A stretch of DNA of 64,000 nucleotides from Roseovarius sp. EL26. GTDB taxonomy: Bacteria > Pseudomonadota > Alphaproteobacteria > Rhodobacterales > Rhodobacteraceae. Every line of letters begins with the position of its first letter. Positions within the stretch are counted from its first letter, which is position 1. Both the position numbers and the translations under genes were made by a program. The notes below the pieces were generated by a model that made no database searches, had not been told where the DNA came from, and saw only the letters and a list, made by a program, of their open reading frames with translations. The DNA lies in assembly GCF_900327775.1 (NCBI RefSeq), contig NZ_OUMZ01000003.1, positions 1-64,000 on the forward strand. The letters are read 5' to 3'. Below, in pieces: positions 1,131 through 43,800 of the stretch.

Positions 1131-1640
1131 TTAGGATCGAGGAGGATAAACCCCACTCAAAGCAATAATGTAATTTATGCAAAGGCTTGGTGGAAAATCA
1201 CTTTGCGGATGATGGCCGGCATGTGCCTCCATACCAGGAGGGTCGATCACAGCGGCACACGACGCTGCATCCGCACTACGTTGAGCCGCTTCAAACACAC
1301 CTTCGACAACCTTTGAACGGCCAGCCGAAACACTTTTTACTCTCGCCTCATTGCTGTGCTGCTGCATTTCCACATCATCCGATGAAATGGCTTCACCACC
1401 AAATTTCTGACCAAGCCTTCGCCGCGTCAGCCCCGTCCCTTGCCCTGCATGCACTGGTACTCGCCCACGAAGGTCTGGCAGGGCAAAGGTGGTACGACCA
1501 TCTCCGCCGTAAGTTGTTCCAAGAAGGCTAAACAAAGATTCATTGCCAGAGATGGGCAATACCTGCCCATCACAAAAGGCCCATCCCTGAGGAGCATATC
1601 CCCCAGCAAAGAGCATTACCTGTGCAATGAATGGTTCCAT
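1131..1640 (-). CDS. Phage tail-collar domain protein (microcystin-dependent-protein/MdpB type)
   Basis: 169 residues. The N-terminus MEPFIAQVMLFAGGYAPQGW followed by FCDGQVLPI and YGGDGRTTFALPDLRGRVPVH is the classic tail-collar fold also found in MdpB-type proteins of non-phage genomes. The C-terminus CINYIIALSGVYPPR is the matching end strand. The length fits the MdpB family (about 165-190). No other phage genes lie nearby, so this is probably a stand-alone chromosomal member. Family members occur in contractile injection systems and as repeated clusters of unclear role; nothing here decides between these. The start has a purine-rich AGAGG ribosome site and the gene ends at its own terminator. 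Confidence 0.85.
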   Translation of the reverse strand: MEPFIAQVMLFAGGYAPQGWAFCDGQVLPISGNESLFSLLGTTYGGDGRTTFALPDLRGRVPVHAGQGTGLTRRRLGQKFGGEAISSDDVEMQQHSNEARVKSVSAGRSKVVEGVFEAAQRSADAASCAAVIDPPGMEAHAGHHPQSDFPPSLCINYIIALSGVYPPRS

Positions 1641-1844
1641 TAACCTCTCCGAAACAAATATTCATGGGTCACAATGGCACGTTAACCGCACCGTAATGAC
1701 GGTCTAGCAAATGCGGGTGGCGTCGTTCTGTGTCTTGGCACACAGAAAGTTAACTTTTGCAAAAATCTTAGAGAACGAAAATTTTAGCCTTATTTTTGCC
1801 TGACTTAGCGCTAGAAAAATACAATCAGACACAACCAATGCGAT

Positions 1845-1886: not shown

Positions 1887-4850
1887 ATGACTCCCCAACG
1901 TAAAAAGGTAGCCGTGATCGGCGGCGGTGTCGGTGCAGTTACGGCAGTCTATGCCATTACCCAACTGCCGGATTGGCAGAAATCATATGACATCACAGTG
2001 TACCAATTGGGTTGGCGACTTGGTGGCAAAGGGGCCAGTGGTCGGAATGTGAAACAAGGCCAGCGGATCGAAGAACATGGCTTGCATATCTGGGCTGGCT
2101 TCTATGAAAACGGCTTTCGTCTGATGCGCGACTGCTATGAGACCTTGAACAAAACCGGTTTGCGCAGCCCGGATGCGCCGCTCGGGACATTGGAAAAAGC
2201 ATTTCACGGGCTTGACCACTTTTTGCTTGCTGATGAAGTACCGCAGCCGGATGGCAGCACACAGCTGCATCCTTGGCGGTTTGACTTCAGCCCGAACAGC
2301 GATGTGCCCGGCACCGGAGGCGTTCTGCCCACACCTTTCGCATATTTCCAGATGGTGATTGAGACGATCATCAAGCTTCTCGAAAATTCAGTTGAATCCT
2401 TGCCGGGGCATCATGTGCCTTCAGAGTTTCACAGTCGTTTCAAAGCGAAAAAGCTGCCGCTTTCCGCGCCCTCTCCTTTGCATCATCTACACAATTTTGT
2501 CCGTAGTTTGGATGCAAATGCCTTTGATCACTCCGAGAGTGACACCCATCACCTCGAGGCCCTGACGCAGCAGGCCCAGAACTGGCACCACGCCCATCTA
2601 GAGCAAAATACTAAAACACAAAGCGATGCATCCCGGCGCACCGGATATCTGATCAGCCTGTCTTTAGCATTTTTCCGGGGAACCATTGATAATGGCCTGT
2701 TCCTTAAAGGTTTTGATGAAATTGATGATTGGGAAATCAGCGACTGGTTGTTGCATTACGGCGCGCGACCGGATGCTGTTTATTCTGCCATATTCCGGGG
2801 GTGTTATGACTATGTCTTTGGATACCCCGGTGGTGTTACCGATCATCGAAGCGTGGGTGCGGGCACGGCTATCCGGGGGCTGTTACGTCTGGCGTTCACC
2901 TACAAGGGTTCGCTGTTTTACAAGATGCAGGCAGGGATGGGAGACACGATTTTTGGCCCATATTATCAGGTGCTCAAACAACGTGGCGTAAAGTTCGAGT
3001 TTTTCAATGCCGCTACGAACTTGGCACTGGGGCCAGATCAAAACAGCATCATCGGTATCGATATGGTCGAACAGGCCGAGGTCCTGAGCGATAGCTACGA
3101 CCCCTTGGTTGACGTCAAGGATTTGCCCTGCTGGCCATCTGCACCCTTGTGGGATCAGCTGAAAGACGGGGCCAATCTGGAAAAATCCGGGATTGATTTT
3201 GAGTGCGAAAAAGACGTGCCCACAGGGCGCGCATACCGTCTGGAAAAGGGTCGTGACTTTGATCTTGTCATTCTTGGCGCATCGATGGGATCACTGCCAT
3301 ATCTGACCCCGGAATTGTCTGATGCCTCTAACCGCTGGCGACGGATGATCGCAAAAGTGCCTACCGTTGCAACACACGCCGCGCAATTTTGGGCCACCAA
3401 AACCCCGGCAGAGTTGGGATGGGAAAAGCTGGTGGCAGAACATAACCCTGGCGATCAAAGTGACCTAAAAACCGTCATCACCAGCTTTCAGGAGCCTCTC
3501 GACACCTGGGCGGATATGTCAGATCTTTTGCCGCATGAGGATTGGGGCAAAAACGGACCGGTATCCCTCGCTTATTTTTGCAGCCCTTGTCATGATGCTG
3601 GCGTGGAGGCCGCTCCATTCACCGAGCGAGTACAAAACTGGGCTGACAATGACTTGACCCGGATGTGGCCTGGGGCGCTTAAAGACGGAAAGTTTGATAC
3701 CTCCATTCTCTATGCAAATGGTGCCAAAACAGACGAGGAAAAGTTCAACAAACAGTATTTCCGCCAAAACTTTTACGGTTCCGAGCGATATGTTCTGTCT
3801 GTGCCTGGCAGCGTGCAATATCGCCTGCCCCCGGATGGATCAGGGTTTGAAAATCTGTACCTGGCCGGGGACTGGACGCGCTGCGGTATCAATGCAGGCT
3901 GTGTTGAGGCGGCAACGATATCAGGTCTGGTCTGTGCCCGCGGATTGACCGGAGCCGATATCGAAGTTGTTGGCGAGGGCGATCTTGAAAATGATGCAGG
4001 CCCCTCTGATGCCGCCAAGCTGGCGATTCCTTATGCACAAACTGCACCCTGGCCCTTGACCCCGTTCTTTGGCACCGGGTCCATAGATGGATTCTTCAGT
4101 TTCCACGATGTCGATGCAACGGCTTTGCAAGCTGTTCTACCAAAAGGCATGTCGTTGCATCCCCAAGCCTTAACACCTGAAGGTAGACACCCGATTGCGA
4201 TGCTGGCCAATCAACAAATCGGCGTGAGACTTTCCGCCCTTCCACGCTTACTGGGGTATAAAAACTATTTGGAGGCCATCATCGCAATCAATTTTGTACA
4301 GATTGAAGGTTATGAAGGAGTCTTTAGTTATCTGCCTAACTTGTATCTTACAAACTCATGGGCCAAGAGCGCTGGCGTCTGGATGTATGGCTACAACAAG
4401 CGTATGGGTAGTTTGCAAATGGGGCATGATAGCTACGAAGTGGCAACTCCAGATGGTTCCCCCATCTGGTCAGGCCGCTATCAGCAAAAGAACTTTGCTC
4501 AGCCACTTGTTGAATCACCTGAATGTGGATTGGTCCAATCCATTTCTGAGCAAATAGTCGTTACTCAAGGCAAATTTTCAAAATGGCAATTCTCGTCATT
4601 TGATTTCAATCTCAGCTCTGCCTATGTCGCGGGCGTTTCAGCAGAAATTGACGTGGTCGACTCCGCTCTTGCAGATATCCCTGCAGGAAAAATGTCAGCG
4701 AGTCCACTCAGGGAGAAGCAACTCATGGGAGAGCGGCGAAATAAGTTGCCGGGAGCATTTCGAATCTGGACAAGTTGGACCTTGTCAAATCCCTTGGACA
4801 GCAGGCGTTTGTCTAATATACAGAAGAAAAGGGGTAAAATGCCCCATTGA
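1887..4850 (+). CDS. FAD-dependent amine-oxidase/desaturase-like oxidoreductase fused to an acetoacetate-decarboxylase-like domain
   Basis: 987 residues; start supported by AAGGAAG upstream. Residues 7-35 form a dinucleotide-binding Rossmann motif (VAVIGGGVGAVTAV). The GWRLGGKGASGRN segment and the C-terminal FAD-closing segment LYLAGDWTRCGINAGCVEAA (about 656-675) are typical of flavin amine oxidases and carotenoid desaturases. After about residue 730 the protein changes: LYLTNSWAKSAG and YGYNKRMG (about 819-841) match the acetoacetate decarboxylase fold, with K838 where the Schiff-base lysine of that family lies and R839 where its neighbour lysine would be. The substrate is unknown; a lipid, carotenoid or amine are all possible. 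The next gene (cyclase) begins 17 bases on and the Crp-type gene follows, so the three look co-transcribed. The fold calls are solid; the combined function is not known to me. Confidence 0.75.
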   Translation: MTPQRKKVAVIGGGVGAVTAVYAITQLPDWQKSYDITVYQLGWRLGGKGASGRNVKQGQRIEEHGLHIWAGFYENGFRLMRDCYETLNKTGLRSPDAPLGTLEKAFHGLDHFLLADEVPQPDGSTQLHPWRFDFSPNSDVPGTGGVLPTPFAYFQMVIETIIKLLENSVESLPGHHVPSEFHSRFKAKKLPLSAPSPLHHLHNFVRSLDANAFDHSESDTHHLEALTQQAQNWHHAHLEQNTKTQSDASRRTGYLISLSLAFFRGTIDNGLFLKGFDEIDDWEISDWLLHYGARPDAVYSAIFRGCYDYVFGYPGGVTDHRSVGAGTAIRGLLRLAFTYKGSLFYKMQAGMGDTIFGPYYQVLKQRGVKFEFFNAATNLALGPDQNSIIGIDMVEQAEVLSDSYDPLVDVKDLPCWPSAPLWDQLKDGANLEKSGIDFECEKDVPTGRAYRLEKGRDFDLVILGASMGSLPYLTPELSDASNRWRRMIAKVPTVATHAAQFWATKTPAELGWEKLVAEHNPGDQSDLKTVITSFQEPLDTWADMSDLLPHEDWGKNGPVSLAYFCSPCHDAGVEAAPFTERVQNWADNDLTRMWPGALKDGKFDTSILYANGAKTDEEKFNKQYFRQNFYGSERYVLSVPGSVQYRLPPDGSGFENLYLAGDWTRCGINAGCVEAATISGLVCARGLTGADIEVVGEGDLENDAGPSDAAKLAIPYAQTAPWPLTPFFGTGSIDGFFSFHDVDATALQAVLPKGMSLHPQALTPEGRHPIAMLANQQIGVRLSALPRLLGYKNYLEAIIAINFVQIEGYEGVFSYLPNLYLTNSWAKSAGVWMYGYNKRMGSLQMGHDSYEVATPDGSPIWSGRYQQKNFAQPLVESPECGLVQSISEQIVVTQGKFSKWQFSSFDFNLSSAYVAGVSAEIDVVDSALADIPAGKMSASPLREKQLMGERRNKLPGAFRIWTSWTLSNPLDSRRLSNIQKKRGKMPH

Positions 4851-4867: not shown

Positions 4868-7837
4868 ATGTCGGAGCAGGCGGTCAAAGGTGAACGCAAA
4901 CAGGTAACTGTTGCTTTCATCGACATCGTGAATTTTAGCGAAACCGCTAGTGTTTCTGACCCCGAAGATCTGCAAAATTGGCTAGAAGAATATTACCGGA
5001 AAGCCCGCGCCATTGTGGAACAAAACCAAGGCGAGGTTACGGAATATCTTGGGGATGGGATAGTCGCCGTATTCGGCCTGTCTCATTCCGACGAGCTCGC
5101 CGCCACAAAAGCTGTGAACGCGACGCTAAAAGTCGTGGGCGAAGTACACACCATTTCTGGCGGCACGATGCAGATGCAACTGCGCGCCGGAGTGGCAACC
5201 GGCGAAGTCGCAGTCCGCACCGAAATCGACAAAGAAGCCTGGCCTCGTCTAACCGGAATGGTCACCACGTTAGCTCAGCGTGTCCAAACCAAAGCCGCGC
5301 CAGGCGCTGTTATGATTGCCGAGCAGACCCGAAACTTGCTGCGCGGCAAATTTTCCCTTTCCCCACATCCGGATCAAAAGCTTAAGGGCATAGCCGAAAG
5401 CCAGACCCTTTATCACACTCAGCTTGGCGCCCCAGCTCCGGGCGTTTCGCATGATGATGTTCTGGTTGGCCGAGTGAATGAACGTGCCGCAATCAGCGCC
5501 AGTCAGCAACCGGTCCTGATTGTCGGTGAAGCGGGCATCGGAAAAACGGCCCTTGCAATGCACTTCGCCCGTCAGGCATTAGCGCCTCTCATTTGTCAAG
5601 CGGATGCGAACCAATCCACCTCAAGCTACCAACCGTTCAAGGATTGGATCAGCCATGTGCTGTCCGACAGCATCGATTTGAACGGTGTAATCACAGCCTT
5701 CCCCGCATTAACAGAAGGGGAACATCTATGCCTTGCGCTAGTTATGGGCATACCAGAGGGGCAAAAACTGTTAACAGAACTTCCCGGTTTGGCCCTAAAA
5801 CGGCAGATCGAAACCAGCCTATGGCGTGCCTTGTCCTTGCATCCAGCGACGGACATGATCATTTTTGAAGATCTGCACTGGTTTGACGCCGCAAGTTTCG
5901 GGGTGCTTCAGCATATCCTGAAAAGTCCGAACAAAAGTGACATCAAAATTCTGATGACCAGTCGCGAAGATACAAAACTTGCAACTTATCTGTCCAAGCC
6001 AGCCCCGGAAACGATACCTGTGCGCCAGCTGGAAAAGAGTGATGCTTTCATGATGCTCGAAAAACTGAGCCAGGGTGAAATCGACATCAAATCCCATGAG
6101 GAACTGGTCGAACGTGCTGGCGGTGTGCCGTTGTTTCTGGATCAGCTATGCAGACGCTATTCAGAAAACTCCACGGAAATCCCCGCTACACTAATGGATC
6201 TTCTTGCTGAACGGATCGATGCAACCGGCAGTATCAAACCCATATTACAGCGCGCATCAGCCATCGGCCAAGTGTTTCGCTATGATCTTTTGTCTGCCGT
6301 GTCCCCCGGCGAAACCAATTTGGACGCGGCCCTGAACAAGGGTATTATGGCTGGCGTGCTTCAGAAGCGGTCTGATCAGGAATGGGCGTTTGCGCACAAC
6401 CTGCTGCAACAGGCGGCCTACCAATCCCTATTGCGCAAATCCCGCGAAGATCTGCATGCTGCCATTGCCGAAGCACTACAGGAACTTCATCCATTGCTGC
6501 TGGCCCGCAACCCTGCCCTGCTGGCTGAGCACCAGAACCGAGCAAAGCAATATGTTGCTGCGATCAGTAGCTATCTGCAAGCCAGCCACATCGCCCTGAT
6601 GCAAGGGGCGTTTTCTGATGCGGAATCCCATGCACGCACGGCACTTGCCTTGAGTGATGTCGTTGCGGACACAGGCGAGGACGTCTCAAATCTCGCCATC
6701 GCAGGTCAGAGCGCTCTCGGATCTGTTTTGATGCAGGTTCAAGGTTTTACAGCAGATCCGGTGCGCGAAGCCTTTGATGCGGTTCACACAATCGCCAGCG
6801 AGCGACGAATTCCCGGATCGGATAGCGCCCCGGCGCTCTTTGGTAGTTTTTCGCATGCGATTATCGCCGGAGATAAAATCCGAGCCGACCGCTTTCAAGA
6901 ACTTCTCCGCACAGTGGCATCCCCTTTACCCTGCGAAGGAGAACACATTGAAGTGCATCTTGCATCGCTATGTGTGACAAACTGCAATAGCTTTTATCAT
7001 GCCGACTTCTCCGACCAGTTCCGACAAACTCTCAGAATCCGCAAGCTTTATCGTATCGAAGACCATTCTGCTATGATTGCTCGATACGGTATGGATATTT
7101 TTGCCGCAGCGCAGATGTTTGAAGCCCCGGCAAGAGTGATGACAGGGCAACTCGACAGTGTTGATGCACTGCTGCGGGAAACCGACACTCATCAAGACGC
7201 CCTCAACATTGCGGTTATGCAACCCTATGCCTTGATCTGGGGGGCGGTGCCATTGTTTTATGCAGGCCGCCGGGAAGACGCATTGAACCGGTTGCGCCAA
7301 GGGATGGACATTGCAACCTCCCAGTCTGCCGCATTCTGGCAAATGACAGGGCGGGCATGGCAATTTGTAATGGACCCCGGATTGGCGCAACACTCACAAG
7401 GGTTGGACGAATTCGCGCAGGTGATCGAGACACACAAGCTGATTGGCGCCAATGCGGGGGAACCCTATTTTTCGTCAACCTATGCACGACGCTTGGTTCA
7501 GGTTGGGCGTGTCGCAGAAGCTTACCGAATTTCTTTTCTTGCCGTCGCCGCCGCCCGCGAAAGCAATATCCAGTTCTGGTATGCGGATATTCTGCGCGCA
7601 CATGCTGAAATATGTCGGGCCTACGGACAAGCTGCCGAAGCAGACGTTTCATTGAAACTTGCGGCCCACACCGCTGACCGGCAAGGCGCCGCCGTTTGGT
7701 CTTTGCAAATCTTGCTTGATCAGGCGGCACTGGGAGAAGATGTCACAACGCAACTGCAATCTGTTTTGAAGAAATTCCCCGACACAACACAGTTGCCTGC
7801 ACTGCAGACTGCCCGTTCGATGTTGCACGCCCTATGA
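4868..7837 (+). CDS. Class III nucleotidyl cyclase domain-AAA ATPase-helical repeat protein
   Basis: 989 residues. Residues about 10-185 are a class III adenylate/guanylate cyclase homology domain with both metal aspartates (D19 in FIDIVNFSE, D63 in YLGDG). An AAA/STAND-like ATPase follows, with Walker A GEAGIGKTA (about 219-227) and Walker B IIFEDLHWFD (about 331-340). The remainder is helical and TPR-like, typical of the soluble cyclase-AAA architecture used for sensing or scaffolding. Oddities: the residue that is normally the adenine-selecting lysine is E59, the second selecting position is R127, and the transition-state Asn position is T134, while the Arg (R138) is kept. The product is therefore uncertain, or activity may be weak. 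The gene overlaps the following Crp-type gene by 4 bases (ATGA), which strongly suggests a coupled cyclic-nucleotide signalling unit. Confidence 0.82.
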   Translation: MSEQAVKGERKQVTVAFIDIVNFSETASVSDPEDLQNWLEEYYRKARAIVEQNQGEVTEYLGDGIVAVFGLSHSDELAATKAVNATLKVVGEVHTISGGTMQMQLRAGVATGEVAVRTEIDKEAWPRLTGMVTTLAQRVQTKAAPGAVMIAEQTRNLLRGKFSLSPHPDQKLKGIAESQTLYHTQLGAPAPGVSHDDVLVGRVNERAAISASQQPVLIVGEAGIGKTALAMHFARQALAPLICQADANQSTSSYQPFKDWISHVLSDSIDLNGVITAFPALTEGEHLCLALVMGIPEGQKLLTELPGLALKRQIETSLWRALSLHPATDMIIFEDLHWFDAASFGVLQHILKSPNKSDIKILMTSREDTKLATYLSKPAPETIPVRQLEKSDAFMMLEKLSQGEIDIKSHEELVERAGGVPLFLDQLCRRYSENSTEIPATLMDLLAERIDATGSIKPILQRASAIGQVFRYDLLSAVSPGETNLDAALNKGIMAGVLQKRSDQEWAFAHNLLQQAAYQSLLRKSREDLHAAIAEALQELHPLLLARNPALLAEHQNRAKQYVAAISSYLQASHIALMQGAFSDAESHARTALALSDVVADTGEDVSNLAIAGQSALGSVLMQVQGFTADPVREAFDAVHTIASERRIPGSDSAPALFGSFSHAIIAGDKIRADRFQELLRTVASPLPCEGEHIEVHLASLCVTNCNSFYHADFSDQFRQTLRIRKLYRIEDHSAMIARYGMDIFAAAQMFEAPARVMTGQLDSVDALLRETDTHQDALNIAVMQPYALIWGAVPLFYAGRREDALNRLRQGMDIATSQSAAFWQMTGRAWQFVMDPGLAQHSQGLDEFAQVIETHKLIGANAGEPYFSSTYARRLVQVGRVAEAYRISFLAVAAARESNIQFWYADILRAHAEICRAYGQAAEADVSLKLAAHTADRQGAAVWSLQILLDQAALGEDVTTQLQSVLKKFPDTTQLPALQTARSMLHAL

Positions 7838-8511
7838 CCGTTGCGAAACTCCTTGGGCTAAACCTGCCCGTGTTTGAAGGCATTACTGCTGCAGATTTAT
7901 CAGCCGTCAATCTGACGTATCGCGAGCAGTCTCTCCATCCATGGGAAATACTTTTCAGCCAGCATGACACCTCGCGGGATGTGTGTTTTCTACTGTCAGG
8001 TGCGCTTCTTGCAGTTTACTGGACACAGGATGGCCGTGAGATCATATTCAACCGCTTTCCTGTTGGCGCATATTTCGGCGAACTGGCCGCGCTTGATAAT
8101 GGCAACAGATCCCTTGCCATCACAGCAACCAGAGACACTCGCATCGCTTCTATTTCGCAAGAATGCTTTGTTGAATTGTTCGATAAAGTTCCTCTGTTTC
8201 GCAATCGCGTGACCTGCAATTTGGTCACAAAAATCCGCGCCCTTACAGAACGCAATCTGGAACTCACAACTTTTAGCGTCGAACAAAGAGTGGCGTCGTA
8301 TTTGATGCGGCTCGCAATAGAGCAAAACCTGTTGAAAGTTGGTGGCATCATTACTGATGCCCCCACCCACGGAGAAATTGCCGCCTCTATCGGTGCAAAC
8401 CGAGAAATGGTCAGCCGCACATTGACTCGGTTGAAAAAGAAAGGCGCGCTCAAAACAGGTCGCAAAAAAATTGAAATTTGCTCTCCTGAAAAACTGTCAG
8501 CAGCAATTTAG
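7834..8511 (+). CDS. Crp/Fnr family transcriptional regulator with intact cyclic-nucleotide pocket
   Basis: 225 residues. The N-terminal cNMP-binding beta-roll includes FGELAALDNGNRSLAITA, which keeps the Glu and the Arg-Ser pair that contact cyclic nucleotide phosphate and ribose in Crp. The C-terminal helix-turn-helix is HGEIAASIGANREMVSRTLT, with a KKKG wing. There is no N-terminal Fnr-type cysteine cluster, so an iron-sulfur sensor is unlikely. The ATG overlaps the stop of the cyclase gene, so the likely ligand is the product of that cyclase. Targets are unknown; a Crp-like site lies upstream of the first gene of the unit. Confidence 0.85.
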   Translation: MTVAKLLGLNLPVFEGITAADLSAVNLTYREQSLHPWEILFSQHDTSRDVCFLLSGALLAVYWTQDGREIIFNRFPVGAYFGELAALDNGNRSLAITATRDTRIASISQECFVELFDKVPLFRNRVTCNLVTKIRALTERNLELTTFSVEQRVASYLMRLAIEQNLLKVGGIITDAPTHGEIAASIGANREMVSRTLTRLKKKGALKTGRKKIEICSPEKLSAAI

Positions 8512-31127: not shown

Positions 31128-31826
31128 TCAATACAGACCATTGGTTTATCCAGCTTCATCCAGAGGGCCAAGGGTAGATTGCAACGCGCTAACGTCAGGT
31201 ATCTTTGTCAACGATGTTTGCAGGCTAGTTCGATGCGACGTGGGGCTGGGCACGGCTATTATGGACGGTTGGAATTTTGCTTATTCCGCTTATTAATAAA
31301 AGCCACCAACGCATGGGTGACATGATTGCGGGTACTTTGAACTGCAGGTGCTGGAAGAAATTCTGCACGCACCCCGAGCGGCTACAAACCGTCGACAGCC
31401 ACGCCCATTTCTTGAACAGCGCCAGCTGTTTGGAGGAATTCGCGAAATCAAATTTCACGATGCAGAGCAAGAGACCCACAAGACGGGCGTAGCGTAGCGC
31501 CAAACCTTCCGAATTCCAGGAAAAATTTTAACATCTGTGTCTTTGCGCACTAAAATATATCCTTACACAAAGTAACCTCTGCTTAGTTGTGATGTGCCGT
31601 GAGGCAGTCGCTTTGTGTGCATTTGTTGTAAATCGGTCATCGGATTTCAGAAAGGCCCAGAGGTTCCTTGATGGTGGTTTCACATTGGTTTTGCAGACGC
31701 TACGTTTATTTAAGACTGGGTTGTATCTGCGTAATGTGCCGGTAATAACTTTAGGTCCGCTAGGAAAGCACAGGTCGGTGTTGGGTAACTTTAGTTGAGA
31801 TTTAGGTCTCGGAAGTAGGTGCTTCG
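31128..31826. other. Intergenic region and probable leader of the giant autotransporter
   Basis: About 700 bases with no gene I can support. The AT-rich part near 31525-31590 is a plausible promoter zone, which would leave a long leader before the TTG start at 31827. No clear terminator or riboswitch was recognised. Confidence 0.4.
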
Positions 31827-34800
31827 TTGAAAGCTGCATTTTATATTTTTCTGCCGGTTATGGCGGTGATGGCAACGCCAGTTTTTGCAACACCAACAGC
31901 ATCGTCAAAGGTCGGGGACACAGTTACCAATCCGGTGACCGGAGGCAGTACGAAAGTTTCTGCGCTTATTGCTGATCCGGATGGCACCCCGACAAAAGGT
32001 AATACTGCCTTTGTGCAAACCGAAGATGGCTACACCTTTTTGGTCAAAACGGCGGGGCAGATTGTTTACAATAACGATAGCCCGGCTGACGGGTTCACCA
32101 TTGGTTCGATTTCGGGCAGCCTTGTTAGGTTCACGGGGGCGACGCTGAGTGGCAACTCGTATTTATACTCGGGCGTCACGACTGCAGAATACACCAGTAA
32201 CTTTATCGGCAATGACGAGCCGGGATATTACCAGCCATCTGATACGTCATCGTTAAATGAAAAGGTTTATAACCCGGTCAGCAACAATTTCACGACGGTA
32301 TCGTCACTGGTGGTAGATCCTGCATCAACCCCGACAGCTGGGGATACAGCATTTGTCGAGACGGCGAATGGATATGTGTTTTTGGTCAAATCTGCAGGCG
32401 ACACCATTTATAACGCAGATAACCCACCCGTTGCCTACACGATCTCTTCGATTTCGGGCACAACTGCACAACTGAGTACAGCTGGTGCAACAGGGACAGC
32501 CCCGTTATCCACACAATTGACGCTGTCAAACTACAACAGCAACTTTGTGGGCACAGATACGCCTGGTGAATTGACCCCACCCGTGGATGTTGTTGGGGCA
32601 ACAGGTGTTAGTCAGATTGTCTATGGCCGGGATGGTAGTAACGGACGTGACGGTGCCCTGTTTGTACCGCCTGCATCGGGCGGTGATGGCGACAATGGGC
32701 CGACACAAACCAAAACACTAAGCAGTGATGTGAATGCGTCCAGCAATGCAGGCTGGATTGTCGGGAGCATTGGCGGTGATGGTGGTAACGGCGGCGATTC
32801 ATATGCCAGCTTCTTTAGCGGCAAAAGCGGTGGCGACGCTGGCAATGGCGGGACGGTCAATGCCACGCAATCGTCCAGTAGTACGATTCAGACCTCGGGC
32901 AACGGCACGGGCGGACAGGGTAATGACGGGATCTTTGCCTTTAGCCGGAGTGGCCAGGCGGGTAATGGCGGGAGCGGATACGCGGCCCCAAGCGGCGGTT
33001 CCGGTGGTGATGCGGGCTTTGGCGGCAATGTTACGGTCAATCAATACGGTGAGATTTTCACAACCGGTGACGCCTCTGACGGCATTTACGCCCTGAGCAT
33101 GTCAGACACTGCTGGCGGCGGGGGGTCTCAATGGGGGCTTTTCGGTGGCTCAGGCAGTGGCGGTGGCGGTGGCAACGGTGGCAACGTGACTGTCAACACT
33201 TACGCCGGATCCCAAATCATTACACAAGGCGATTTCGCCAACGGCATTTATGCACAATCCATCGGGGGCTCGGGTGGTTCATCCGGGACCAGCGGCAACC
33301 TGATCGTTTCGGTCAGTGGCAGCTCTGATAACGGCGGTGATGGCGGCAAGGTGACCATCAGCCATGCAGGAGCGATTCAAACCGGCAGCGCGACGGATTC
33401 CTCCAAAGGCATGTATGCACGCGGTATTCTGGCACAATCTGTTGGCGGCGGCGGCGGCTCGGGCGGCGTGGTCGGCGGATTGATCTCAATCGCTGGTGGT
33501 GGCATGGGCTCAGACGGTGGTGACGGTGACGAAGTGAGCGTGACCGTACAAGGCACCGGTTCCATCGTTACTTACGGCTATGGTGCTGATGGTATTATGG
33601 CGCAATCCATTGGTGGCAGCGGTGGTTTTGGTACTGATGCCTATGGTCTGGTCGCGGTTGGTGGTGATGGCGCAAATGGCGGCAACGGCAATGACGTGAG
33701 CGTGACGAACAAAGGCAGTATCGTTACGTCAGGCACAGGTGCACGGGGCATTATTGCGCAAAGTATCGGCGGCGGTGGAGGTGACGGCGGTTCAACCGGC
33801 GGTATGGTGTCGGTTGGCGGTAGCGGCGATGGCGGCGGCGATGGTGCAGACATTACAATCGTCAACGACGGCATCATTACCACCGGCGGTGATGACGCCA
33901 TGGGTATTCTGGCGCAATCGATTGGCGGCGGCGGCGGTAATGGCGGGTCATCTGTTGCCGTTGGCGTGTTTGCGGGTGTTGCCATCGGTGGCGATGGCGG
34001 CGCGGGCGGCAAAGGTGGCACGGCAAGCGTGAGCCTGTCGAATACAGATCCAAGCCAACCTTCGGCGATTCAGACGTCGGGCGACCGGTCAACAGGTGTC
34101 TTTGTTCAATCCGTTGGTGGCGGTGGCGGTAACGGCGGCGGCGCAGTTGCTGTGTCGGCTGGTTTTGGCGCGTCAGCTTCGGTTTCCGTAGGTGGTGAAG
34201 CCGGTGCTGGCGGAGATGGTGGCATTGCGACCTTAGCGGGCTCTGGTTCTGCCTCGGTTCAAACCGGTGGCGACGATGCGGCTGGTGTTATCTTGCAGTC
34301 GATTGGCGGCGGTGGCGGTAACGGCGGTTATGCGGTTTCCGTGGCCGTGTCCGGAGGCCCGGTTTCGGGATCACTGGCTGTTGGTGTCGGGGGCTCTGGC
34401 GGTTCAGGCGGTAAGGGCGGTACTGTTACGGTTGGTACCGTGAATAGCAGCGGTACTCTAACAGCCTCAGGATTTGACGGCCAAGTGATCACTACAGGTG
34501 AACGCTCGACCGGCATGTTGTTCCAATCTGTTGGCGGCGGCGGCGGTAACGGCGGCCTTGCGGTTGCGGCCACAGGCGGGGCCTCGGCGCTGATGTCCGG
34601 CAATGTTTCAATCGGTGTTGGCGGATCGGGCGGAAGCGGCGGCAATGGTGGCATTGTGCGCGTTTATAACAAGGCAAATGTCACAACCACGCAAAACAGC
34701 TCAACCGCAATGATTGCGCAATCCATCGGTGGCGGTGGTGGTAATGGCGGCGGCAGCGTGGCCGCCGGGATCAGCGCCAGCGGCGGCGCTGCAATCGGTG

Positions 34801-37800
34801 TGAATGTCGGAGCTGGTGGCACCGCTGGTAGTGCAGGCACCGGTGGTGCAGTGACCCTGATTGCTGGTGGCGACACGATCTTGACGCAGGGCGATTTCTC
34901 AAGCGGTATTCTGGCGCAATCGGTTGGCGGCGGCGGTGGTAACGGCGGCTATGCGGTTGGGGCAAGTGCTGACTTTGGCGGCGGGGCTGCGGCGTCGATC
35001 AGCGTGGGTGTTGGTGGCGGCGCTGGCGGCGGTGGTAATGGTGGTGATGTCGCCGCACAGATCGATGCAGATGTAACAACGCGCGGCAATGATGCGAGCG
35101 CGGTGATTGTGCAATCTATTGGCGGCGGTGGCGGCAACGGTGGCTTTAGCGTGGCTGCAGGATTGGCGGCTGGTGGCGGAGGCGCGGGCACCGTTGGTGT
35201 TGGTCTGGGTGGTTCAGGTGGCAGCGGCGGCATTGGTGGCACTGTTTCGGGCGTGCGGATCAATGGTGATGTGCGCACCGAAGGTCAACGTTCTACCGCG
35301 GTGCTGGTTCAGTCCGTTGGCGGTGGTGGCGGCAATGGCGGCTTTAACGTTACGGCGGGTGTTGCCGCAGGCGGCGGGGGCGCAGGCAGCATCGGTGTCG
35401 GCCTTGGCGGCAGCGGATCAACTGGCGGTGACGGTGGCGTGGTTGAGGCGCAGGTTGCTGGCGATGTGGTAACGCTCGAAGATTCCTCGAGCGGCGTTGT
35501 TTTCCAATCCATCGGCGGTGGTGGTGGCAACGGTGGCTTTAACGTCACCGCAGGCATTGCTGGCGCGGGCGGTGGCGGCGGTGCCGTGACAGTTGGGCTT
35601 GGCGGCGATGCAGCCGGGGGCGGAGTTGGAAAATCTGTTACCGGTCGTGTAACTGGTACGGTCGCAACAGGTGGATCAGATTCAACAGCCATTCTGGCGC
35701 AATCTGTTGGCGGCGGCGGCGGCAACGGCGGGTTCAATGTGAGCGCCTCGTTGGCGGGAGCAGGTGTTGGCAGTGGTGCGGTGTCGGTTGGCCTTGGCGG
35801 CGATGGCGGAACCGGTGCTATCGGTGGCACGGTGAACCTGACCAGCACAAACTCAGTTCAAACCACTGGCGACAGATCGTCTGGCGTAGTGGCGCAATCC
35901 ATCGGTGGTGGTGGCGGTAACGGCGGCTTTAATGTCAGCGGTTCTGGTGCGGGTGCTGGTGTCGGCTCTGGTGCAGTGAGCGTTGGCCTTGGCGGCACTG
36001 GCGACGGTGGTGGTAATGGTGGCAATGCCACGCTGACCTCGAACGGTACAATCTTAACCACGGGCGAGTCTTCAACCGCATTCCTTGTGCAATCTATCGG
36101 CGGCGGGGGTGGTAACGGTGGCTTTAACATCAGCGCAGCGGTGCAGGGTTCGGGCACTGCAGGAGCGGGCATTTCGGTCGGTCTTGGCGGTGATGGTGGT
36201 GGTGCCGGCAACGGCCTGACTGTGACTGGCACTTCGACCAAGGCGGTTGAGACGCGCGGCAATAATTCATCAGGCGTTGTGGCGCAGTCCATCGGCGGGG
36301 GCGGCGGCAACGGTGGTTTCAATGTTTCGGCAGCATTGTCCGGCGCAGGTACAGCCAGCGGCGCAATTGGTGTTGGTTTGGGCGGCACGGGTGATGGCGG
36401 TGGTACTGGGGGGACAGTCAATCTGACCTCGAATGGAACCATCTTGACACAAGGTGATAACTCGACTGCTTTTCTGGCGCAATCTGTTGGCGGGGGCGGT
36501 GGCAATGGCGGCTTTAATGTTTCAGGCACCATTTCAGGCGCGGGCACCGGCAGTGCCGGAATCAGTGTTGGCTTGGGTGGTGATGGCGGCACCGGCAGTG
36601 ACGGGGGTGTTGTGACCGGTACCTCGACCGCAGCGGTCGAGACGCGCGGCGATAACTCTTCCGGGGTGGTAGCGCAGTCCATTGGTGGCGGTGGTGGTAA
36701 TGGCGGCTTTAATATCGCGCCGGCGATTTCTGCAGCGGGCACAGGTAGTGGCGCGCTTAGCGTTGGCTTGGGTGGTTCGGGTGCTGGCGGCGGTGACGGC
36801 AAAGACGTCACTCTGACGTCGAATGGCACAATTTTGACCAACGGTTTCGCTTCCAACGGCTTTGTCGCGCAGTCGATTGGCGGCGGTGGCGGCAACGGTG
36901 GGTTTAACGTTGCACCAAGCATATCGGGAGCAGGTACCGGTGCAGGCAGCTTGTCGGTTGGATTAGGCGGTTCAGGTGATGGTGGCGGTAACGGTGGCAA
37001 GATCACCGCGAAAACCACGGCGAATGTGACCACACAAGGTGGTGCCTCAGTTGGTATTTTGGCGCAATCAGTTGGCGGCGGTGGCGGCAGCGGTGGATTC
37101 AATGTCTCACCTGCCCTGGCTGGTGCAGGAACCGGGGCTGGTGCAATCAGCGTGGGGCTTGGCGGTTCAGGCGGCGGTGGCGGCAACGGCGGCGTTGTCG
37201 GACTGACTGTCGAAAATGATGTGCGCACGGAAGGCGCACAATCCAGCGCGATTGTGGCGCAATCAGTTGGCGGCGGCGGTGGCAATGGCGGCTTTAATGT
37301 CTCGGCCTCGGTTGGCGGCGCAGGCACGGGCGCAGGCGGTGCGGCGGTCGGTCTTGGCGGCAGCGGTGATGGCGGTGGGAATGCCGATGCGGTTACAGCC
37401 AATGTCACCGGTAATATCGTCACGCTGGGTGAAACATCCTCTGGCCTGTTGGTTCAGTCGGTTGGCGGCGGTGGCGGCAACGGCGGCATGAATATTTCCG
37501 TGGCGATTGCTGCGGCGGGCAAGGGCGCTGGAGGGGCCTCCGTTGGTCTGGGTGGCGCTGGTGGGACTGGCGGGACAGGAAGCACAGCAACCGGAACGCT
37601 TACCGGTAATGTTGGAACGCAAGGTGCCAATTCTGGTGGCGTGATTGTGCAGAGCCTTGGCGGCGGCGGCGGTAATGGCGGGATGAATATCTCGGCCACG
37701 GTAACCGTGTCGGGCAAAGCTTCGGGTGGTGCATCTGTCGGCATCGGTGGATCCGGTGGTAATGGTGGTAGCGCGGATGTGGCCAGTGGTACGGTTGTCG

Positions 37801-40800
37801 GTGATGTTGTGACTATGGGCGCCAATTCCGGTGGTGTTCTGGTGCAATCAGCAGGTGGCGGCGGCGGTAACGGTGGCATGAATATCTCTGCGGCCGTGAA
37901 CCTGTCGGGTTCAGGCGGCGGCGCGGTGGGTGTTGGCATTGGTGGATCGGGCGGCGATGGTGGCAATGCGAAAGACGCCACTGGCCATGTGACGGGCAAT
38001 GTCATGACGGCCGGCAAAGATTCGACCGCTGTTATGGTGCAATCCGTTGGCGGTGGTGGCGGCAATGGCGGCCTTAACATTTCAGGCGCGATCAGTATTG
38101 CGCGCGAAGGGTCTGGTGCCGCAGGCATCGGTGTCGGCGGTTTTGGCGGAGATGGCGGCACCAGTGGTGTGGTCAACAGCACATATATCGGTACGGCCAC
38201 AACGCTTGAGGATCGCTCGGCCGGGGTTATCGCGCAGAGCCTCGGCGGCGGCGGCGGCAACGGGGCCACGAATATTTCAGGGGCGATTTCGCTGAGCAAC
38301 AAGTTCTCAGGCGCGCTTGGCATTGGTGTCGGCGGCTTTGGTGGCGACGGCGGCGCGGCTGAGAGCGTGACACAAGTGGTCACGGGCAACGTCAGCACCA
38401 TGGGTGTGGATTCAACCGGTATCCTGACGCAAAGTCTTGGCGGCGGTGGCGGCAACGGCGGCACCAACATCTCAGCGGCCTTGTCCATCTCACGCACCAC
38501 AAGCGGTGCGATTGGTATCGGTGTTGGCGGCTTTGGTGGCGGTGGCGCAGACGCAGGTGATCTGGTGCAATCCACGGTCACGGGCGGCGTAACTACCAGT
38601 GGCGACCGCAGTACGGGTGTTCTGACCCAGAGTATCGGCGGCGGCGGCGGCAACGGCGGCACCAATGTGTCGGCAACGGTGGCGCTGTCACAGGAAAAAG
38701 GTGGCGCGGTCAGCTTGGGCGTCGGCGGCTTTGGCGGTGGCGCGGGTAACGGCAAAACCGTGACCAGCACCCTGCGCGCGGGCGCATTGAGCGATGGTTC
38801 GAACAGTTCGATCATCACACGAGGCAAAGACAGCATCGGCGTTATGGCACAATCGGTTGGTGGCGGTGGCGGCACCGGTGGACTGAATGTGTCTGGCGCG
38901 GTCAGCATCACTGGTAAATCAGGCGCTGCTGTGGGTCTTGGCCTTGGTGGCTTTGGCGGTGGCGGCGGTGATGCCGGGATGGTGACGTTGGATGTCCAAA
39001 GCGATATCTACACCATGGGCGATGGCGGACATGGCTTGTTCGCCCAGAGCCTTGGTGGCGGTGGCGGCACTGGGGGTGTGAATGTCTCGGGCACTCTGTC
39101 ACTAACCAAACCATCTGGCTCGGATACGATCTTCTCGGTTGCGGCGGGTGTTGGCGGATTTGGCGGAGATGGCGGTAGCGCCAGCGCAGTTGATCTTGAT
39201 TACACCGGTGCCATTCAGGCGGTGCCGATGGCATTGCAATCCGATGGCACATTTGCCGTGGATCAGAGCAAAGGTGCCAGTGGCATTATCGCACAGTCTA
39301 TCGGCGGCGGCGGCGGCACAGGTGGTACCAATGTTTCAGGCGCATTGGCGATCAGTGGCAAGCCCGGCGCCGGTCAAGCCGACGACAGCAAATCCTACGC
39401 AGTGGCGATTGGCGTTGGTGGCTTTGGCGGCGGCGGGGGCAGCGCGGGCAACGTTAACGTAGATGTCGGCGCTGGCAGCACTATCCGCGCCCATGGCACT
39501 GGCCAGTCAGGGATTCTGGCACAGTCAGTTGGTGGCGGCGGCGGCAACGGGGGCATGAACGTCTCGGGCGGTATCGTTTCGGACAGCTCTTTGATCGTCG
39601 GCATTGGTGGTTTTGCCGGTGACGGCGGCACTGCGGGTGATGTGGTGGTCACAACGCAGGCTGATATCACGGTCACAACCAACCCTGATGATATTTCGAT
39701 CCCCAGCGACGATAGTTTCGAGAGCAAACTACGTGATTTCCTCGGCGATACGATTGTTAATGAAACCGAAGAATTGGCCTCGACTTACGGATTAGAGCGG
39801 CTGTTTATCGACATGGGTGTTTTCAACGAAGAAAAACAAGACACTGATGGTTCCGCTGGCCTGATGGCACAGTCTATCGGTGGCGGTGGCGGTAACGGTG
39901 GTTTGAATGTGTCTGGCGGCATTGCGCTCAGCAAAGACGGTAAGATCCCTTCGGTCACATTCGGGGTTGGTGGTTTTGGTGGTGACGGCAACATCTCGGG
40001 CGATGTGACGGTCGATCATACCGGCACTGTGATGGTGGCTGGCAATTGGAAACATGGTGTTCTGGCGCAATCGATCGCAGGTGGTGGCGGCAATGGCGCG
40101 TTGAATGTGACTGGGCAGCTGAACTATGGCGATTCCAACAGCTCTGGCGGCCAAACCGACTTGAGCATTGTAGGCGGCCTTGGCGGTCACGGTGGCACCG
40201 GTGCCCATGCAGGTGATGTAAACGTCACCCAAACCGGTAATATCGCAACAAATGGCTATCATGCCCGCGGTATTTTTGCCCAAAGCATTGGCGGCGGTGG
40301 CGGGACCGGCGGGATCAACGCGACATTCGTCGGCACCAAGGACAGCTCACCCATTGCGATGGGCATCGGTGGCTTTGGCGGCGGTGGCGGAGATGCGGGC
40401 GATGTGACAGTGGCACGCGGCACTTCCGGTGTAGCAGCGGGCACCATTCAGACCGACGGTGTCGGATCGCACGGCATCGAGGCGTCGAGTATCGGCGGCG
40501 GCGGCGGTGATGCCGGGATTAATGCGGTGGTGGGGATCAGCAAAACCACGGGCAGCAAAAGCAACGGTGGCACCGGCGATTCAACGGATCGCAAAACACC
40601 GACCAATTCAGGTGTCGATGATTCCGTGATTGCCAATTACAACAACGTGTTGGACGAGCTTGAAGGTAAAACCAACCCAGCGGATTCCTCGGGCAAGAAA
40701 ACCGGCATGTCTGCGGTCATCGCCATTGGTGGCGATGCGGGTACCGCCGGGGACGGCGGTGAAGTTGATATTGATCACTTTGGTGATGTCATAACTCTGC

Positions 40801-43800
40801 AAGACAGCAGTCACGGTGTCTTTGGTCAGTCCATCGGCGGTGGTGGCGGTAACGCGGCCTTGAACCTTGGCATGACATATGAGCTGGCATCTGATGCGAC
40901 CAACAAGGGCTTTGGTTTGGCCATCGGTGGCGGCACGGGCGATGGCGGCACTGGCGGCAAGGTTGATGTGCGTAACACCGGTAACATCAACACAAGTGGC
41001 AAAGATTCTTACGGTTTGTTTGCCCAGTCGGTTGGTGGCGGCGGTGGCAACGCGGCTTATAATTCCACTTCAACCTCCGTGGATGGTGGCAATGTGAATA
41101 TTCAGATCGGTCGCACCGGGGGAACCGGGGGGGCCGCTGGGGATGTTTATGCCAGTTCAAACGGGACCATTCGCACATCGGGTAATCGCTCTTACGGCTT
41201 CTTTGCTCAGTCCATTGGGAATGGTGGCGGTAATTCGACATCAACTTCTGTCAGCGTTGGCACACCAAAAACTGGCGACAGCAAAGGCAACAAAGCCAGC
41301 CTGTCAGTTGGGCTTGATGGCGGTACTGGTGGCGAAGCGGGTGATGTGACAGCGAATGTATCAGGTTTGGTCGTAACCGAAGGCGTAGATGCGCACGGTG
41401 TGTTCGCCCAAGCTGTTGGCGGCGGTGGTGGTAACGGCGGTAAAGCCAGTAGCTCTGCCGGTGGGGGGATGTCTGTTGGTATCTCGATCGGCGGTACCGG
41501 CGGTACCGGTGGCCTTGGCGGCAAAGTTGATGTGACCAACACCGCTCAGATCGCGACCTTTGGCGAACGCTCGATTGGTCTAGTGGCGCAATCTGTAGGC
41601 GGCGCGGGCGGAACTGGCGGCATCGTGCAAGCGGGTCAATCGAACCTTGATACGATCAAAGCTTTGGTCAAACCATCTACAGTCGGGACGACAATGTCGA
41701 TAAACATCGGCGGCACCGGTGGCGATGGGATGACTTCAGACACTGTGACGGTAGATAGCGACGGACCAATCCGTACCGCAGGTATGATGTCGCACGGTAT
41801 TTTTGCGCAATCCATCGGCGGCGGTGGTGGCATGGGTGGTGTGGTTGAAAATCGGATCATCAGCCTACGCAAGGAGATTGGTAGCACCGCGACCCTGTCT
41901 GTTGGTGGCAATGGTGGAACTGGTGCGACATCAGCAGCGGTCACTGTAACCAATCGTGATCTTATCCAAACCACAGGTGAAAAATCTGCTGGTATCTATG
42001 CGCAATCTGTCGGCGGCGGTGGCGGTGATGCACAACAGGTGCGCAACATCATTCTAGGCCGTTCTTCAGATGGATCGACTACCAACGCAATCCTGATTGG
42101 CGGCACAGGCGGCACAGGCGGTGCGGGCAGCACAGTAGACGTGATCAACACATCCGATGCGACCATCCAGACCACAGGCAAAGACAGCTATGGCATCTTT
42201 GCACAGTCCATCGGCGGCGGTGGCGGCAATGGCGGTTCGACCATCTCGGTTGATGGCCGCTATGGCGGATCTGAGGCCTCAACCCGTCGTGCCATTCAGT
42301 TTGGTCTTGGCGGGTCTGGTGGTACGGGCGGTATCGGCGGCAATGCGACGGTGACCAACGACGGCGCGATTGTTACCAGAGCCGCAGGGGCGCATGCCAT
42401 TCTAGCGCAGTCCATTGGCGGCGGTGGTGGCAACGGCGGTATGTCACTCACTGGCACGCTTCGTCTTAAAACCGGCGATAGCAGCTCACCGACCGCACAA
42501 CTGAACATTGGCGGCGGCGGTGGCGATGGCAATACTGCGGGCAATGTTGCTGTTACCAATACTGGTGACATTCAGGTGGATGGGGCATCAGCCTACGGGA
42601 TCATGGCGCAATCGGTTGGCGGTGGCGGTGGTAACGGTGGTTTGGCCGTGTCGATGGACGTAAATGACCTCAAAAATACAGTGACTGGAAAATCCTATAC
42701 CAAGATCGCTATCGGCGGCGCGGGCGGAGACGGAGCCAACGGTGGCAACGTTGAGGTGAACCACAGCGGGATGATTGTGGTCAACAGTGACAACGGCTTT
42801 GGCATCTATGCGCAATCGGTCGGTGGCGGCGGTGGCAATGCTGGCTACTCGGTTTCTTCTCCATTGGTGTCGGCAGCGGATTTCGTTATCTCGCAGGTTT
42901 TGGGCGCACGTGAAGGGTCGACCGGTACGTCAGGCACAGTAACGGTCAATACCACTGGCGATATCTTTGTAAATGGTGCCGGCAGCGAGGCGGTCTTTGC
43001 CCAGTCAGTTAATGGCGGTGGAGGTAATGTCGACACCTTCGTTGATTTCAAGGCACCGGATTTAACAGCAGCTGCGGCTGCAAGTAGTGCTTCTGTGGTT
43101 AGCTCAGCAGCAACGTCCACCAGTGCCTCGGTCGGCACAGGTACGGTCGTTTCCAGCGACATCGCTTTGGGTGGCACAGATGTGTCCGGTATGGCGGGTA
43201 ATGATATCGATCAAAGCCATAGCGGCAACATCGTGACGGCGCTGGACCAATCAACAGGCATGATGCTGCAAAGCATTGGTGGCGGTGGCGGAATGGCGAC
43301 CACAACAGTTGGCGTGGCTGAGGGCGAAGGTATTGATTTGAGTGCCCGGCTTGGTGCGATAAATACCAGCAATGCGGGTGGCGGTAATGTCACCGGCGGA
43401 CGGACAGGGGATGTCAGCACGGCTGGCGCGTTCTCTTCTGCAGGATCAGCCCAATCTATTGGTGGCGGTGGGGGCAAGCTTGTCTTGCAAAACACCAGCG
43501 ATGGCACAGCAGATAGCACACAAAGCGCCAGCGTGATTTTGGGCGCTGACCCCAGCTTTACCAATAATGGTGGTGATGTCGGCCTGACTTTGAATGGAGA
43601 TGTGAGCACAACCGGCGACAACGCTTTTGGTCAGATTGTCCAGAGTATCGGTGCTGGTGGCGGCGAGGCGATTTTGTCTGGTCTGGGCGCAGCAGCTGTC
43701 ATGTTGGGTGCGCAAGACGATTCGACTGGCGATGGCGGTGGTATCACTATGACCAATGCCGGGGGAATGATAACAACGGGCGCGGGTTCACACGGGTTTG

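Follow-up and report, generated by a model that had tools for sequence, protein, structure and literature searches.

A class III cyclase with a Glu/Arg base-selecting pair and a linked Crp-type regulator in Roseovarius sp. EL26

Here we present an analysis of a gene from Roseovarius sp. EL26 (contig NZ_OUMZ01000003.1) that joins a class III nucleotide cyclase domain to a STAND-like AAA part (hereafter cyclase-AAA). All coordinates are positions in the window, that is, the whole 64,000-nt stretch analysed. Guanylate_cyc of Pfam matches residues 10–179 with 72.3 bits (cut-off 21.9) and AAA_16 matches residues 212–355 with 42.7 bits (cut-off 32.6); orthologs of the protein display a P-loop region in the AAA_16 part. 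The gene, its domains and the critical codons (verified by script) are listed with the number of aligned sequences that keep each residue.

4868..7837, + strand: cyclase-AAA (STAND-like) protein, 989 amino acids (aa), ATG start (open reading frame (ORF) and Pfam)
4895..5404, + strand: class III cyclase domain, residues 10–179 (Pfam Guanylate_cyc, AlphaFold2, Foldseek, VIA-align)
4922–4924, + strand: GAC, D19, first metal Asp, 35/35
5042–5044, + strand: GAA, E59, first base-selecting position, 35/35
5054–5056, + strand: GAT, D63, second metal Asp, 35/35
5246–5248, + strand: CGT, R127, second base-selecting position, 34/35
5267–5269, + strand: ACG, T134, catalytic Asn position, 34/35
5279–5281, + strand: CGT, R138, transition-state Arg, 35/35
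5501..5932, + strand: AAA_16 ATPase domain, residues 212–355 (Pfam)

The first-pass annotation of this DNA, aligned by eye, had read both metal aspartates and R138 as present and had placed E59, R127 and T134 at the two selecting positions and the Asn position. That register is borne out by the codons and by alignments to solved cyclases. By phmmer, E59 aligns with a Glu in both Cya2 (2w01) and the RhGC cyclase (6sir), in keeping with the annotation's remark that guanylyl cyclases carry Glu there. The 6sir alignment is gapless over residues 106–138 and pairs R127 with Cys, T134 with Asn and R138 with Arg; the 6sir residues are Glu497, Cys566 and Arg577 (PMC7384201). The alignments were checked for Lys with Asp or Thr at the two selecting positions and show none, and an alignment shift restoring Lys/Asp is ruled out, as there is no gap from G130 to R138. 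The Pfam match above its cut-off, the fold, the two metal aspartates and the transition-state Arg all place the domain in class III, and the Glu at the first selecting position is the guanylyl cyclase residue.

A scan of species genomes yielded 42 loci, of which 31 are Rhodobacterales orthologs (42–77% identity). Two of these (L019 and L030) have no N-terminal domain, so they enter no residue count. In the 29 readable orthologs, D19, D63, E59 and R138 are invariant (29/29), and R127 and T134 are each kept in 28. The enlarged set of 35 comprises these 29, the window and five further genomes, all from one Rhodobacterales clade. Within it, the cyclase domain has a median pairwise identity of 55%, and the C-terminal Lys173 is kept in 33 of the 34 rows with a residue there. 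Compared with Roseovarius albus, the window shows a nonsynonymous divergence (dN) of 0.111 in the cyclase domain, versus 0.179 and 0.158 in the remaining two parts of the protein; this is one sequence pair, in which synonymous divergence (dS) is saturated. Degenerate drift is ruled out by the residue conservation and by the cyclase domain evolving slowest. Judged from sequence, the active site is thus a maintained, fixed trait of a clade, and the counts for E59 and R127 suggest a selected specificity. Among the functions the first-pass annotation had offered, the residues best support cyclic GMP (cGMP) synthesis, and weak activity or a scaffold role is disfavoured by the conservation and the low dN; its reading of the residues is confirmed and its reading of function appears reasonable.

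The AlphaFold2 model of the domain is confident (mean predicted local distance difference test (pLDDT) score 88.9) and has a class III fold. Its best Foldseek match is the guanylyl cyclase RhGC with GTP (E 9.8e-16), and adenylyl and guanylyl cyclases tie at the top of VIA-align, so the fold cannot name the substrate. The residues are more telling. Guanylyl cyclases bond guanine N1/N2 chiefly through this Glu, the second residue being less conserved (PMC7384201), and Lys or Arg at the second position has been proposed to bond guanine O6 (PMC4886424). In Ma1120, K101E together with D157 changes raised guanylyl cyclase activity (PMC4215837). The same enzyme is active with Ala at the Asn position, so a missing Asn is no proof of inactivity; introducing Asn abolished its guanylyl activity and greatly lowered its adenylyl activity (PMC4215837). 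GTP is favoured because the Glu/Arg pair reverses the charges of the adenine-reading Lys/Asp, and because of the role of Glu in reading guanine, the prediction made for the Glu-Lys/Arg proteins of DUF2652 (discussed below) and the activity of Ma1120 without Asn. Our best guess, at about even odds, is that the substrate is GTP and the product cGMP rather than cyclic AMP (cAMP).

The cyclase-AAA gene lies between two partner genes, and a dyad lies further upstream, beside a gene on the other strand.

7834..8511, + strand: Crp-family regulator, 225 aa, ATG overlapping the cyclase stop (Pfam cNMP_binding and HTH_Crp_2)
1887..4850, + strand: fusion of a flavin adenine dinucleotide (FAD)-dependent oxidoreductase and an acetoacetate-decarboxylase (ADC)-like part (FAD/ADC), 987 aa, ending 17 bases before the cyclase
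1727..1746, no strand: dyad TCTGTG-N8-CACAGA, predicted Crp site between the collar and FAD genes, 12/12 positions
1131..1640, − strand: phage-tail-collar-domain protein, divergent from the cyclase unit (Pfam Collar, 99.3 bits)
31534..31553, no strand: tentative second site, 274 bp ahead of a 4740-aa ORF at 31827, second-best score in the window

The script places the cyclase stop and the start codon of crp in a single ATGA (7834–7837), and the Crp-type protein is thus encoded in the same unit, as the first-pass annotation had it. The protein has a cyclic nucleoside monophosphate (cNMP) domain with the cassette Glu and Arg, and a Crp helix-turn-helix, as a Crp-type cNMP receptor should. Across 32 aligned sequences, the phosphate cassette (Glu83, Arg92, Ser93), the C-helix pair Leu137-Thr138 and the recognition-helix residues Arg190, Glu191 and Arg195 are all invariant (32/32); the Arg/Glu/Arg set presumably acts as in E. 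coli CRP. In Clr, it is the second Thr, equivalent in position to Thr138, that forms a bond with guanine N2 (PMC10127613). As a pointer to the ligand, the C-helix was given up, since Leu-Thr also accompanies a Gln-type cyclase (L124).

The gene order is well kept. Among the 31 ortholog loci, crp comes after the cyclase in 30, the FAD/ADC gene before it in 27, and a collar gene is nearby in 26. The misses in L019, L030 and L008 are uninformative because the first two start inside the cyclase gene and the third inside the FAD gene; L016 has 1.9 kb of upstream sequence without the FAD gene, and L025 lacks crp, FAD/ADC and collar alike. Of 390 genomes of the order, 18 hold the cyclase (E ≤ 1e-90), 25 the FAD gene (E ≤ 1e-30) and 13 both (Fisher p 6e-14, only a guide, as the genomes are related). 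Ten of the 12 FAD-only genomes have a divergent cyclase close by, nine of these in the FAD-linked branch described below, and crp adjoins the cyclase in all five cyclase-only genomes. The ADC match of the FAD/ADC protein itself (27.9 bits) is under the Pfam cut-off of 29.8, and its model, of only fair confidence (pLDDT 71.6), shows ADC-like and FAD-oxidase folds. K838, invariant in 17 rows, may be the ADC Schiff-base Lys. Farther afield, FAD/ADC homologues often lie near cyclase-AAA or kinase-AAA genes (the kinase assigned by eye) in Azospirillum, Rufibacter (Bacteroidota), Bradyrhizobium and Chelatococcus, and three distant cyclase-AAA genes (L036–L038) adjoin two tandem FAD-gene homologues. 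No cyclase-AAA or kinase-AAA gene was found within 9 kb of the Catenovulum homologue, or close by the FAD genes of L129 and L131.

The dyad was first seen in a scan upstream of the FAD gene, and the window holds its only perfect copy in the EL26 genome. The site belongs with the collar gene: of 27 loci, the window included, 26 have at least 10 of its 12 positions in the 200 bp ahead of collar (L010 reaches 9), beginning 80–180 bp before the ATG, and the site stays with collar where that gene is 5.7–6.7 kb from the FAD gene (L002, L006, L021 and L024) or on the other strand. Control promoters carry a dyad in 14 of 472 cases. By position, nine of these are the collar site itself, counted again from the divergent gene, and five are a second site that precedes the next gene in loci of Yoonia type. 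With a weight matrix built on 25 of the 27 collar sites (window and L010 excluded), the unlinked collar genes of two genomes outside the matrix (G324 and G372) score 20.7 and 20.5; none of 3,000 random 300-bp stretches reached 16. The spacing of the dyad is that of the Clr motif GTNNC-N4-GNNAC. The position and spacing of the site, together with the Arg/Glu/Arg kept in the recognition helix, lead us to predict that the Crp of the module binds it.

A survey of collar genes examined 30 loci from 58 genomes with a match, seven of them (two module loci) unreadable by motif. The site is present in 11/11 readable module loci and in 3/12 others (G130, G384 and G134); some of these genomes are of the same species as loci L001–L031, and the two sets are thus non-independent. 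None of the three has the cyclase at threshold. G134 has a 56% identical crp close by and G130 one of 36% identity, near which lies a cyclase with Lys/Asp/Asn; for G384, no crp was found in 19 kb. The 19 kb read at the G134 locus (L194) retains crp, collar and dyad but contains neither the FAD gene nor the cyclase gene. The Crp–collar link may be older than the pairing with the cyclase. The five cyclase-only genomes have no dyad in the 500 bp ahead of the cyclase gene. Four other dyad-like places in EL26, of 122 with at most two mismatches, gave no coherent regulon. The tentative second site scores 17.9 against 17.8 for the best of 20 shuffles, and is hence weak; the ORF that it precedes (31827–46049) encodes a giant glycine-rich repeat protein with an autotransporter-like end, judged by eye. 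A second collar type occurs in tandem copies in the genomes of the collar loci L172–L174, L176 and L178–L180, with no dyad upstream of the copy read.

From what is directly observed (the conserved residues, the order of the genes and the conserved dyad), we infer the following circuit. With its charge-swapped Glu59/Arg127 pair in place of Lys/Asp, the class III cyclase would use GTP and make cGMP, and the AAA/STAND-like part probably senses a ligand and turns the cyclase on. The cyclic nucleotide would be bound by the Crp encoded in the same, presumably co-transcribed, unit, and regulation would run from Crp on the dyad at 1727–1746 to the collar gene on one side and to its own FAD–cyclase–crp unit on the other. 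We read the module as a dedicated cyclase–Crp circuit on this sequence evidence. The whole explanation, a working Glu59/Arg127 cyclase whose likely cGMP is read by its own Crp at the dyad, seems to us about as probable as its failure.

Several observations temper it. Invariance of single residues is common, because 44 of the 174 columns of the domain are invariant (n = 35). The catalytic Asn is lost (Thr in 34/35, Ile in one), and the second selecting residue is not the Cys, Ser or other small residue of guanylyl cyclases (Arg in 34/35, Ala in one). Perfect dyads are found in 13/18 cyclase genomes versus 59/372 others, an enrichment that is weak support because just 8 of these 13 genomes have the copy at collar (G385 judged from the place of its FAD gene). 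Given G130, G134 and G384, the site also goes with crp and collar no less closely than with the cyclase.

An active cyclase that makes cAMP, or that takes ATP and GTP promiscuously, we consider rather unlikely. The Leu-Thr Crp could read cAMP too, but the conservation of E59 and R127 suggests specificity, EL26 has a separate Lys-type cyclase (L058), and Glu is unable to donate a bond to adenine N1. Also unlikely is a dead nucleotide-binding domain that acts on the ATPase as a regulatory scaffold, in which case Crp would answer to a different cyclase. Besides the lost Asn, this draws on the first metal Asp being absent in alignment from L036–L038 (Bradyrhizobium and Chelatococcus), near FAD-gene homologues, and on G134 keeping crp without a cyclase in the stretch read. 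It is opposed by the retention of both metal aspartates, Arg138 and Lys173, by the cyclase domain being the slowest-evolving part and by the dispensability of Asn in Ma1120 (PMC4215837). Very unlikely, finally, is a pyrimidine cyclase making cyclic UMP (cUMP), whose uracil N-H/C=O edge resembles guanine and could be read by Glu/Arg: BcPycC reads UTP through Tyr50, Asp94 and Arg97 (PMC11224242), with Asp94 at the E59 position by our own count, and PADLOC PycC models match with up to 35.6 bits, but the general class III Pfam model scores higher, the second metal Asp sits between Gly62 and Gly64, places at which PycC, again by our count, has larger residues, and the neighbour is Crp with no linked TIR or membrane effector. 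Membership of the Pycsar defence systems is ruled out by partners and residues, the direct neighbours being Crp, FAD/ADC and collar, with no TIR or membrane cNMP effector.

The Glu/Arg pair may have arisen within a cyclase family held together by its partners. Among other class III cyclases of EL26 and its relatives, Lys stands at the first position in 11/13 and Asn at the catalytic position in 12/13 readable rows. The same FAD–cyclase–crp order is found on a Qingshengfaniella plasmid, whose cyclase is 28% identical and carries E/R/V; more distant FAD-adjacent cyclases carry Q/Q/N (four), Q/M/N (one), A/N/N (one) or Lys with Leu/Met and Asn (three). On a 59-row tree, Glu at the first position requires one change, and FAD-linked cyclases form a single branch of 44 rows (Shimodaira–Hasegawa-like approximate likelihood ratio test (SH-aLRT) 99), outside which falls L130 despite a FAD gene 2 kb away; the tree is a quick one, without bootstrap, with several long-branch rows, and omits L019, L030, L023, L035–L038 and L042. 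We propose, tentatively and as a doubtful extension, a non-defence circuit in which base choice changed within a partner-locked Lys/Gln/Ala/Glu family, the Glu/Arg cyclase making a non-cAMP messenger (cGMP or, most boldly, cUMP) through which its own Crp would switch collar and FAD/ADC.

Other cyclases in these genomes have neighbours of their own. The Lys-type L058 of EL26 has a response-regulator-like N-terminus, and its neighbour is a membrane-type protein that contains a cNMP-binding domain (L061; both at about 335251–336498 of contig C7); by sequence, they are a second cyclase–receptor pair of the genome. A further class III domain (L057, C7:1517041–1517514) has His at the first selecting position and Thr aligned at the Asn position. 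At L126 and L127, the genes downstream of Lys-type FAD-linked cyclases encode large proteins with a cNMP-binding domain at the end; by eye, one resembles a permease and the other an ABC transporter.

What is most new here is the partner-linked module with a predicted target, rather than Glu itself. With most subscription journals outside coverage, none of the papers examined among those listed describes this cyclase–FAD/ADC–Crp module at title and abstract level. Proven cases of bacterial cGMP signalling are few (those named in PMC3770947 and PMC4681086), and here enzyme, receptor and likely DNA target lie within 8 kb in mostly environmental bacteria, making the circuit bench-testable. The natural series of Lys, Gln, Ala and Glu at one position offers a test of substrate change in class III cyclases, and, if R127 reads guanine O6, Glu/Arg would mirror the Lys/Asp code for adenine.

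The domain resembles Synechocystis Cya2 and RhGC (20–25% identity) in class III fold, metal aspartates, first-position Glu and transition-state Arg. It differs in having Arg and Thr where these keep Asn and carry Gly (Cya2; PMC4886424) or Cys (RhGC) at the second position. Its conserved Glu and Arg recall the Bacteroidetes cyclase-like proteins of DUF2652, with conserved Glu and Lys/Arg, a separate uncharacterised family likened here by description only and predicted to be guanylyl cyclases (PMC4886424). The protein aligns over residues 4–943 with the TOMM kinase/cyclase fusion (TIGR03903), but no kinase domain is among its Pfam matches, and membership is ruled out by a score of 223.9 bits against the NCBIfam cut-off of 705.75. 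The Crp shares family, cNMP cassette and site spacing with Sinorhizobium meliloti Clr (7pza), whose helix has Thr-Thr instead of Leu-Thr and which answers both cAMP and cGMP (PMC10127613). In Xanthomonas, the TPR-attached class III domain of XC_0250 makes cGMP when purified and is linked to a cNMP receptor, XC_0249, that carries GGDEF and no DNA-binding domain (PMC3770947). In Rhodospirillum centenum, the cyclase genes gcyB and gcyC lie beside that of the autoregulated, cGMP-using Crp homologue CgrA; they encode putative guanylyl cyclase subunits, called non-catalytic in one passage, and serve encystment (PMC4681086). Both of these are likened to the EL26 module by description.
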